Assembly (NCBI RefSeq): GCF_001956985.1
Contig: NZ_CP019082.1
Coordinates: forward strand, 6,076,001 to 6,140,000
Source: Paludisphaera borealis
GTDB lineage: Bacteria > Planctomycetota > Planctomycetia > Isosphaerales > Isosphaeraceae
DNA length: 64,000 nt
Direction: 5' to 3'
The first letter of the stretch is position 1; every line of letters starts with the position of its first letter. This document shows, piece by piece, positions 38,300-43,787 of the stretch. The notes below the pieces were generated by a model. The model saw only the letters and a program-made list of their open reading frames with translations. It was not told where the DNA came from and ran no database searches. Made by a program: the position numbers and the translations under genes.

Positions 38300-38450
38300 T
38301 ACAAGCCCGAAGCGCCAGCGAGTGCATTCCGAGCCAGCGTGCTGAATAAGCAAACGCAAAACAATGCACTCGCTGGCGCTTCGGGCTTGTATTCGGAGGC
38401 CGCCGACGTGACTCCTCGGTGCCCCATTTTCATGAGGTCGGGTGTCCCGC
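38300..38450. repeat. palindromic unit A followed by inverted unit B
   Basis: TACAAGCCCGAAGCGCCAGC with GAGTGCAT (from 38300) is answered by ATGCACTCGCTGGCGCTTCG with GGCTTGTA (38364-38391), a 28-bp inverted pair. The 35-bp core contains GTGCTGAATAAGCAAACGCA. After about 30 bp, 38421-38450 is the reverse complement of unit B. The transcript could fold into a very stable hairpin, so it may act as a 3'-end structure between the methyltransferase gene and the convergent serine acetyltransferase gene. Confidence 0.85.
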
Positions 38451-39415: not shown

Positions 39416-39617
39416 GTGCCGCCTTTCGCGCTCGCCGTAGTCTCGAATTCCTATCGACATCTTACGGGAAGGCCGCCGGGCGAATCAACGTGGACGACGT
39501 CCGCGCGGCTCGCGCGGGGGCTCGCGTTGCGTTGACTTCGCCTGGGAGCCTGCCTAGCATAACTTTGAGAACCCCTGGAATCACGAGATCCGAATTCCTT
39601 CGAGAGGCAGGCGATTG

Positions 39618-41054
<1,437 letters not shown>

Positions 41055-41139
41055 GGAGTCGCTCCGACCCCGTGCGGAACGGCCGAGGCTCTTGGGGCAC
41101 GGGGGGAGTACGACCCGTGGCACCCGGCACCCGGCGAAA

Positions 41140-41236
41140 TACAAGCCCGAAGCGCAAGCGAGTGCATGGTTTTGCGTTTGCTTATTCAGCACGCTTTCTG
41201 GGAATGCACTCGCTGGCGCTTCGGGCTTGTATTCGG
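41140..41236. repeat. palindromic unit A, second full copy with inverted core
   Basis: TACAAGCCCGAAGCGCAAGC with GAGTGCAT (from 41140) pairs with ATGCACTCGCTGGCGCTTCG with GGCTTGTA at 41204-41231. The core GGTTTTGCGTTTGCTTATTC is the reverse complement of the core at 38300, so the arms are alike but the core is flipped. It lies in the 243-bp gap between the MoxR-like and VWA genes. Confidence 0.85.
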
Positions 41237-41297
41237 AACTGCGTCCGCCCATGCTTGCTCAACTCCACCGTCGTCGCCCAGGGAGGATCACTCGATC

Positions 41298-42440
41298 ATG
41301 TCGGAATATGAATACTCCAAGTGGGACGGCTCGCAAGAGTTCCTACCGCAGTCGGCCGACAAGCTGTTCGACCAGCTCTCCGAGTACATCCTCCAGTACG
41401 GCGACGACGTCCTGAGGAACCTCGAAGACGTCGACGACGACGATCTCCCCGAGGTGATCGAGCTGATCCAGAAGGACGGTCTGATCGAGCGTGACGACGA
41501 GGGCAAGTGGCGGGTCACACCCAAGGGAATCCGGCGCATCCAGGACAAGTCGCTCCACGAACTCTTCCAGACGTTCAACCGCGACGGCATCGGCCGGCAC
41601 GAGACCCAGCAAAAAGGGGAGGGGACCGTCTCGCTCGAAGACACCCGCCCGTACGTCTACGGCGATTCGCTGGCCAACATCGACATGCACGAGACGCTCA
41701 AGAACGCCTACATCCGCCAGGGGGGCGGCGTGCCGATCCGGCTCAGCCACGAGGACTACATCGTCCACGAGACCGAGTACCAGACCCGGTGCGCGACCGT
41801 CGTTCTGATCGACATGAGCGGCTCGATGGGCCGGTACGGGAAATACTACACGACCAAGAAGGTCGCGATCGCGCTCCAGGCGATGGTCCGGGCCCAGTAC
41901 CCGCAAGACTCGATCCAGATGATCGGCTTCTACACGTTCGCCAGCCCGATGACCGAGCGCCAGCTTTTGAACTCGGCGCCCAAGCCGGTGAGCATGTACG
42001 ACAGCCGGGTGCACTTGCGGTTCGACCTCGACAAGCCGCAGGGCCGCGTGCCGCAGCACTTCACGAACATCCAGGCCGGCCTTCGCCTGGCGCGCAGCCA
42101 CCTGCTGCGGCAGTCGGCGGCGAACAAGCAGATCATCGTCATCACCGACGGCGAGCCCACCGCCCACCTCGAAGGCCGCGAGGTCGTCCTGATCTACCCC
42201 CCCGCCGAGAAGACCGCCGCCCACACCTTGAACGAAGTCCGCCGCTGCGCCGGGGCGGGGATTCGCGTGTCGAGCTACGCCTTGATCGAGGATTACTTCT
42301 ACATCGGTCTGGTCAACTTCGTCCAGGAGATGGCCCGCGTCTCCAATGGCGTCGCCGCGTATTGCTCGGTCGACGACCTCGGCAAGTTCGTCTTCGAGAG
42401 CTTCATCGGCGGACGCCACACGCGAAGGTATCGGGAGTAA
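41298..42440 (+). CDS. von Willebrand factor A domain protein
   Basis: This encodes 380 residues. The N-terminal half is acidic and helical (LEDVDDDDLPEVIELIQKDG). A VWA domain follows with a full MIDAS signature: VVLIDMSGSMGRY (DxSxS), a Thr in TNIQAGLRLARSHL, and VITDGEPTAH (Asp). This is the usual partner of the MoxR/ChlI-type ATPase encoded just upstream, and the pair probably forms a metal-binding chaperone complex acting on an unknown client. ATG 41298 with GGGAGGA upstream was chosen; the larger frame upstream reads through the repeat element. Confidence 0.85.
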   Translation: MSEYEYSKWDGSQEFLPQSADKLFDQLSEYILQYGDDVLRNLEDVDDDDLPEVIELIQKDGLIERDDEGKWRVTPKGIRRIQDKSLHELFQTFNRDGIGRHETQQKGEGTVSLEDTRPYVYGDSLANIDMHETLKNAYIRQGGGVPIRLSHEDYIVHETEYQTRCATVVLIDMSGSMGRYGKYYTTKKVAIALQAMVRAQYPQDSIQMIGFYTFASPMTERQLLNSAPKPVSMYDSRVHLRFDLDKPQGRVPQHFTNIQAGLRLARSHLLRQSAANKQIIVITDGEPTAHLEGREVVLIYPPAEKTAAHTLNEVRRCAGAGIRVSSYALIEDYFYIGLVNFVQEMARVSNGVAAYCSVDDLGKFVFESFIGGRHTRRYRE

Positions 42441-42458: not shown

Positions 42459-43787
42459 TCACGCCCACTGCTTGGCCATGCTGTAAGGGAGCACCTTGAC
42501 GCCGCGCTCGCGGAGCGACGACAGGCTCTGGCGAAGCAGGTCGAGCTGCTCGGCCCAGGCGGATTGGTCGAGCGGGGTGAGGCCGGGATTCGACGAATCG
42601 GCGATCTCCCGCTCGTCGAGCAGGAAGACGAGGTCGCCGCGCGTGAGGGCCAACGACTTGATGAGGCGGGCCGTCCTGGCGATGTGATCCGCGGCCCGTT
42701 CGTTTCCGCCCCCGCCGACGAGCGTGAGCACGCTCAGTTCGACGTCCGACTCCTTGGCGCGGGAGACGAAGTTCTGAAGGTCTTCGTCCAGCCAGTCCTT
42801 GCCGTACAGCCGCCTGACGTCCGGATCGCCCGACTCGACCCCGAGCGCGATGTGCGACAGCCGGCGTTTATGGGCGCCCGCGAGCAAGTCGACTCCGGCG
42901 ATCGGCCGGGAGAAGTCGTCGAGGAAGACGTGGACGTCGTCGATCATCGGGCTCGATTCCGGATCATCCGACCGGGTCGTCCGCGCGTTGGCGCTCAGAG
43001 GGAGCACACGGCCGATGGCGTCGAGGTAGCCGAGGACGTCGTCGGCCGGCCGGCGGAGGACGTCGGCACCGGCGAGGAAGACGGCCCGGGTCTGGAGCAA
43101 CCGGCGGCCGAGCAGGGAGGCGACGTCGCGAACGTGCCGCTCGAACTCCTCGGGCGTCCGGACGCCGTGGTCGTGAATCGGCCCACCACCGAAACTCCGC
43201 CCCCCCGCGTCTCCCCGGGTCGCCTGGAGGATCACGGCGTTCTGGCAGTCCGGGGGGGTGAACGGCAGCGGTCCGTACGAGTCGTGGTAGAGCTTCCGAT
43301 GCGCGCTCCAGGCGGAGGCGTCCCAGGCGGCGATCCGGTCCAGGAACTCGCGCAGCGCGGCGTCGTCGATCACCTTGGCTTTTTCGCCCGGCGGGTTCTC
43401 GACCCGGAACGCCTGTGCGTCGAGCCCGGCTCGCAGGATCTCGGCCACCTCGCGGATCTCGGAATCGAGCCCTTGGGCCTCGGCGTCGTCGAGCACCCGG
43501 CGCTTGAGGACGAGGTTCGCCCCCTCGCGAACGCGATTGATCTCGTGGATGGAGGCGTCCAGCCGCTTCAGGTAGTGGCGGTCACGGACGTAGGCGCGCT
43601 GCCAGCGGCCTTCGAGGTCGAAGTGGAAGATCGGGGCGTCGCCGAAATAGAGCGAGAACGCGCCCTGCTTGAAGCCGGCGAAAACGAAATCGCCCTCGCC
43701 GTCACCCGGCTGGAGGCCGATCCGATGGTGATAGATCGCGCCGGACTGGAGGAGGCATGCGGCCTCGGTCTGGTGGTGTTGCGACAT
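42459..43787 (-). CDS. radical-SAM-like protein lacking the Fe-S cysteines
   Basis: This encodes 442 residues. The overall pattern resembles a planctomycete radical SAM family: ILQATRG, a short loop, RTPEEFERHVRDVASLLGRR, then HIALGVESGDPDVRRLYGK and VELSVLTLVGGGGNERAADH late in the barrel. At the place where such proteins have CxxxxRCxFC, the sequence is GDAGGRSFGGGP (about 192-203), so all three cluster cysteines are absent. An [4Fe-4S]-AdoMet site is therefore not possible as written. ATG 43787 has GGAG 5 bp upstream. It converges with the VWA gene with 18 bp between stops. Confidence 0.65.
   Translation of the reverse strand: MSQHHQTEAACLLQSGAIYHHRIGLQPGDGEGDFVFAGFKQGAFSLYFGDAPIFHFDLEGRWQRAYVRDRHYLKRLDASIHEINRVREGANLVLKRRVLDDAEAQGLDSEIREVAEILRAGLDAQAFRVENPPGEKAKVIDDAALREFLDRIAAWDASAWSAHRKLYHDSYGPLPFTPPDCQNAVILQATRGDAGGRSFGGGPIHDHGVRTPEEFERHVRDVASLLGRRLLQTRAVFLAGADVLRRPADDVLGYLDAIGRVLPLSANARTTRSDDPESSPMIDDVHVFLDDFSRPIAGVDLLAGAHKRRLSHIALGVESGDPDVRRLYGKDWLDEDLQNFVSRAKESDVELSVLTLVGGGGNERAADHIARTARLIKSLALTRGDLVFLLDEREIADSSNPGLTPLDQSAWAEQLDLLRQSLSSLRERGVKVLPYSMAKQWA

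Follow-up and report, generated by a model that had tools for sequence, protein, structure and literature searches.

We analysed a window of 64,000 nucleotides from Paludisphaera borealis and confirmed an open reading frame at 42459-43787 on the minus strand, 443 codons including the stop. It is referred to below as the query. As the earlier note had it, the VWA gene (41301-42440, plus strand) converges with the query; a PMT-type gene is divergent from it. The VWA gene belongs to a MoxR-type ATPase and VWA pair at 39615-42440, in which AAA_5 and VWA_2 score above cut-off and chelatase models lie far below theirs. Family members were compared in two alignments. A1 has 36 rows, taken from 40 sequences found, without L013 (internal TGA), L039, L040 and L045, and with the fragments of G035 and G036 left out. 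A2 has 33 rows, includes L040 and is without the eroded g20 sequences (L030, L034, L035, L037), L013, L039 and L045, so that any count out of 33 refers to barrels that are better preserved. The features of the query are as follows.

42459..43787, minus strand: whole coding sequence, Cys-less radical SAM-derived protein of 442 aa
43398..43787, minus strand: N-terminal beta domain (N-domain), residues 1-130, which other families of the class carry with no barrel attached
43263..43397, minus strand: linker with two helices, residues 131-175, from the structure model
42504..43262, minus strand: radical SAM-type barrel, residues 176-428, from the structure model and structure matches
43176..43214, minus strand: degenerate cluster loop, residues 192-204, with D193, S198 and G201 at the canonical cysteine positions of the joint barrel alignment
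42834..42836, minus strand: E318 of the GxESG motif, kept in 26/33
42615..42617, minus strand: D391, gained in the Cys-less clade, in 33/33 of A2 and 33/36 of A1
42462..42503, minus strand: C-terminal tail, residues 429-442, with K431, Y435 and K439 invariant in 36/36

The barrel-type signatures described in the earlier note are real, resting on a match to PF04055 and on a predicted structure that resembles radical SAM structures. The PF04055 match covers residues 299-370 at 21.4 bits, below the curated cut-off of 29.5. Among the family members 21 of 36 match at E ≤0.01 (best 2.1e-8), and all five of the fused Cys-bearing homologues that were scanned pass the cut-off (33.7-52.7 bits). No NCBIfam model came near its cut-off on the query. 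The xylose isomerase-like TIM barrel (PF01261) reached 14.9 bits against a cut-off of 31.1, PF04072 and TIGR00027 were both under cut-off, and a sequence search against solved structures gave a best E of only 0.29.

A model of the query built with the 36 family members had a mean pLDDT of 92.2, a pTM of 0.89 and a well formed barrel. The best solved match of the barrel in Foldseek was MgmA (9ccb, methyl-coenzyme M reductase glutamine methylase; E 9.7e-8), followed by viperin, SkfB, MiaB-type proteins, HydG, lipoyl synthase and RimO. We then took a second look at the Foldseek matches with VIA-align 2, counting rows no more than 1 Z apart as tied, and MgmA was again at the top (Z 16.2, rmsd 3.1, 217 aligned), ahead of MiaB, Elp3, HemN, viperin and RlmN. 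In Foldseek and VIA-align 2 alike, all 50 matches listed for residues 169-442 were radical SAM proteins. By model and structure matches the query has the partial TIM-barrel fold of the radical SAM superfamily. MgmA, the nearest structural match of the barrel, is 17% identical to it, the scores of further radical SAM rows differ from that of MgmA by no more than 1 to 2 Z, and the query is without the cluster cysteines.

The cluster loop of the query reads LQATRGDAGGRSFGGGPIHDH and, as claimed earlier, is free of cysteine; the loop sequence GDAGGRSFGGGP agrees with the previous reading. The single cysteine of the barrel half is residue 181, in the motif PPDC ahead of the loop. We found a homologue in 42 of the 45 genomes of the query's family, and the three genomes with no match are 89%, 68% and 77% complete. 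None of the 36 members aligned in A1 has a cysteine in the loop, and none carries the three cluster cysteines after strand 1 that mark a catalytic radical SAM protein; one member (L029) has a single Cys in the strand immediately before the loop. By comparison, 48 of 49 Cys-type relatives have at least three cysteines in the corresponding alignment columns. The absence is therefore neither chance nor a sequencing slip. Six of the 36 (L030, L034 to L038) have a shortened loop or none at all, and the common cysteine columns of the family, residue 11 (31/36) and residue 181 (23/36), both lie outside it. The alternative of a mere mutation in this copy, raised in the earlier note, applies in part: relatives outside the family do carry the cysteines, but the loss is common to all 36 members.

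Searches of its own genome with the Cys-less barrel profile, and with the Cys-bearing one at E 1e-12, each hit the query alone. When a single Cys-bearing protein was used to search that genome, it retrieved one further frame of weak similarity besides the query. A separate scan of genome contigs yielded one distant relative. In another genome of the family, G012, the 445-aa frame of the family member (L140:7299-8633) keeps the N-domain and has no recognisable barrel.

Running the Cys-less barrel profile over 119 genomes from the phylum brought up two kinds of protein, stand-alone radical SAM proteins about 300 aa long and longer fused ones. A second profile, built from five of the fused proteins, was run on 392 genomes and led to 15 fused homologues outside the family (L151-L165), and the motif GCxxxxCxFC is present in 15/15. 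With the Cys-less barrel profile 12 of these outscore the best stand-alone protein (99.6 bits), L158 being highest at 169.5, and the other three score 86.7, 94.3 and 99.5 bits. The fused proteins, from the same phylum as the query, share with it an N-terminal extension and a radical SAM barrel, and the joint alignment extends to a C-terminal PYxxE-type tail. They differ in that all 15 keep the cluster cysteines, and the N-domain profile is clear only in L158 (E 1.3e-16) and L152 (3.1e-6). L157 is weak (0.029) and the remaining 12 are unrecognised at E 1, so that with 2/15 below E 1e-3 the same architecture is clear for few by that test. No curated family name was found for L151-L165. In the class the fused-type profile matched 40 of 248 genomes at E 1e-12, all 40 in the query's family; hence no Cys-bearing fused form was found among the 203 class genomes outside it.

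The stand-alone proteins (RPPSEAxSLxLQxTxGCxxNxCxFC type; L082-L105 and others) have a homologous barrel that shares GxESG, K, GxGG and H with the query. They differ from it by having no N-domain, by their cysteines and by forming a separate clade in trees. Proteins L082-L105, about 300 aa with GCxxxxCxxC, are common in the phylum; L085, the only one of them scanned, stays below every NCBIfam cut-off.

The expectation that Cys-less versions form a clade was borne out. All 33 Cys-less rows came out together (SH-aLRT 100) in a quick tree built from 82 barrels, and the group was kept with support of 98 when the loop columns were removed. In a careful tree of 61 of the 82 rows, thinned, without the long branches L031 and L155 and with loop columns included, the Cys-less clade received 100/100. 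Since both other barrel groups bear cysteines, the simplest reading is that the cysteines would have been lost once, on the stem of the Cys-less clade. The fused Cys-type rows form one group in the loop-free quick tree (support 82) but not in the other two trees, and in the careful tree L158, the best-scoring Cys-bearing homologue, falls with the stand-alone proteins (74/77) rather than beside the Cys-less clade. The trees fix no sister group for the Cys-less clade, which speaks against a simple picture. Descent of the barrel from a radical SAM protein with cysteines and an N-terminal extension already in place is well supported.

We found the N-domain in 143 of 248 genomes of the class, 42/45 in the family and 101/203 outside, with no genome of the family coded f3 among the matches. 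Outside the query's family the frames are mostly 165-250 aa and the fused-type barrel was not seen. The stand-alone N-domain proteins (MARxExxREDLL type) carry the same domain, 19-28% identical to that of the query among 12 aligned copies, and differ from it by having neither barrel nor tail; L106-L115, L121 and L122 are about 160 aa from the likely start. Of 246 genomes sampled from the phylum, a single one outside the class matched, G283, through its fused protein, and L158 was found later as a second case when the N-domain profile was run on the fused homologues. That two fused proteins with cysteines carry the N-domain speaks in favour of an old fusion, with the barrel perhaps lost later across most of the class. 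The N-domain is modelled with a pLDDT of 96.6. Scans of two stand-alone copies gave no Pfam or NCBIfam match of note, Foldseek against the PDB gave nothing at E ≤0.001, and the best VIA Z was 4.6 (8tvj_E, rmsd 4.3, 97 aligned); because the PDB alone was searched, the missing relative does not establish a new fold. Our work points to an N-terminal domain that is widespread in the class and has no known function.

We next compared the barrel positions that persist. Sixteen columns are more than 90% identical in both Cys-bearing groups, and four of these, the three cysteines and Y204, are kept in 0/33 Cys-less rows. The other twelve are kept to differing degrees: P178, P179 and G316 in all 33, H368 in 31, L310 in 29, G192 and G358 in 28 each, L356 in 27, E318 in 26, F237 in 23, K330 in 21 and L305 in 10. 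G360 and G361 are also present in 33/33, and D391 is new in the Cys-less rows, 87% of the fused relatives having Pro at that position. In A1, G316, G227, P178 and P179 are invariant (36/36). Most ancestral positions of the barrel outside the loop have survived. The positions on strands 2, 4 and 5 that presumably bind SAM (G316, H368, G358, E318 and K330) are kept in part. In the four g20 members most of these barrel motifs are eroded.

Both halves of the query protein are under purifying selection. By Nei-Gojobori, dN/dS was 0.16-0.45 for the barrel and 0.06-0.45 for the N-domain over 13 pairs, which are non-independent, more than 66% identical and probably underestimated in dS owing to GC-rich codons. 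Mean column entropy was lowest in the tail (1.27), followed by the N-domain (1.42), the loop stretch 176-210 (1.77) and the rest of the barrel (2.00). The barrel is the most variable part of the protein and is eroded in some members.

On balance we think it probable, by a little over even chance, that the protein is a radical SAM pseudoenzyme fixed in one family, in which the N-domain and tail act and the barrel is a scaffold. The origin is well supported and the present function is what we infer. The earlier suggestion of a pseudo-enzyme is probable, given radical SAM descent and the clade-wide loss of the cluster cysteines; a regulatory, scaffold or new non-redox use of the query protein is possible. 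The three cluster cysteines of a radical SAM ancestor with an N-terminal extension are absent in one clade, and the gene is under purifying selection. With the cluster ligands gone, no 5'-deoxyadenosyl radical would be made. The active parts would be the conserved N-terminal beta domain and C-terminal tail, which would most likely bind a partner or ligand, and the barrel would now hold them in place, perhaps with a cluster-free ligand pocket. The lower entropy of N-domain and tail relative to the barrel speaks for this reading, as does the N-domain without the barrel in 101/203 outside genomes. Against a mere scaffold, the barrel is selected about as strongly as the N-domain in most pairs, and it seems to keep pocket-type positions that a scaffold alone would not need. 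Two more points count against the reading as a whole: variability around the loop does not exceed that of the remaining barrel, and the N-domain profile, as a sequence test, is clear in only 2/15 Cys-bearing fused homologues. If the reading is right, the defining cofactor site has been lost clade-wide in a radical SAM lineage while the rest of the barrel is still selected. One phylum would then offer barrels with cysteines, barrels without them and N-domains with no barrel, a series in which the role of a barrel without its cluster can be tested; a barrel match by itself should then not be annotated as a radical SAM enzyme.

The retained positions could instead mean that the barrel, though cluster-free, still binds SAM, SAH or some other nucleotide and acts on the N-domain in a sensory or regulatory role. 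We regard this as doubtful. P178, P179, G316, G360 and G361 in every A2 row, the high retention of H368, G192, G358 and E318, and the new D391 all argue for it, but E318 is lost in 7/33 and K330 in 12/33, the four g20 members, which lie outside the 33, are without most of the motifs, the frame of G012 has no barrel match, and the SAM-pocket role of these residues is presumed. More specifically, that a small-molecule pocket made of GxESG, GxGG, H368 and D391 in a cluster-free barrel senses SAM or a nucleotide and so controls the N-domain seems to us rather unlikely. The erosion could also mean that the barrel is a vestige in the course of being lost, with the N-domain, perhaps with the tail, alone mattering. 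This has perhaps one chance in five: the shortened or missing loop in 6/36, the match of G012 in the N-domain alone (residues 6-187) and the barrel-free N-domains of the class outside the family fit it, but barrel dN/dS, the well formed barrel model and the four residues invariant in 36/36 do not. That other residues, such as His or Asp in the loop, hold a metal or cluster is highly improbable. The first Cys position is His in 14/33 and Asp in 8/33, but the other two vary (Ala, Ser, Gly and others) and six members have a short or missing loop. We looked for metal ligands elsewhere, as the earlier note had proposed, and found no replacement site in the barrel half, where H218 and D391 are the only His, Asp, Glu or Cys columns conserved in at least 90% of the 36. 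A literature search by title found none on a Cys-less radical SAM family; publication elsewhere is possible.

The neighbourhood was compared across loci. Within the stretches taken, MoxR and VWA accompany the homologue at 12 of the 18 family loci; PMT does so at 17, GT and TruA at 15 and ASD at 13. Near relatives outside the family (stand-alone N-domains and fused Cys-type) MoxR, VWA and PMT were found in 0/17 loci; these stretches measure 4.6 to 17 kb and would not show copies lying further off. The tie to the MoxR/VWA pair drawn earlier finds no support in these loci beyond the family, and we do not take the pair for partners. Clustering of the neighbours of 12 stand-alone N-domains gave no constant partner: GCV_T-like proteins occurred at 5, HD, Lar_N and AhpC/TSA-like proteins at 4 each and M50 peptidases at 3, and ten further neighbours that were scanned had mixed functions. 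At the 15 fused Cys-type loci the sets common to five overlapped the fused gene itself on other frames, and other sets covered at most three loci.

Two inverted pairs of a 27-base repeat, with arms 38 bases apart, lie at 38300-38391 and 41140-41231. In its own genome the repeat occurs 292 times (154 forward, 138 reverse) at up to 2 mismatches, against 0 for a reversed control. It is an abundant dispersed, often hairpin-forming element.
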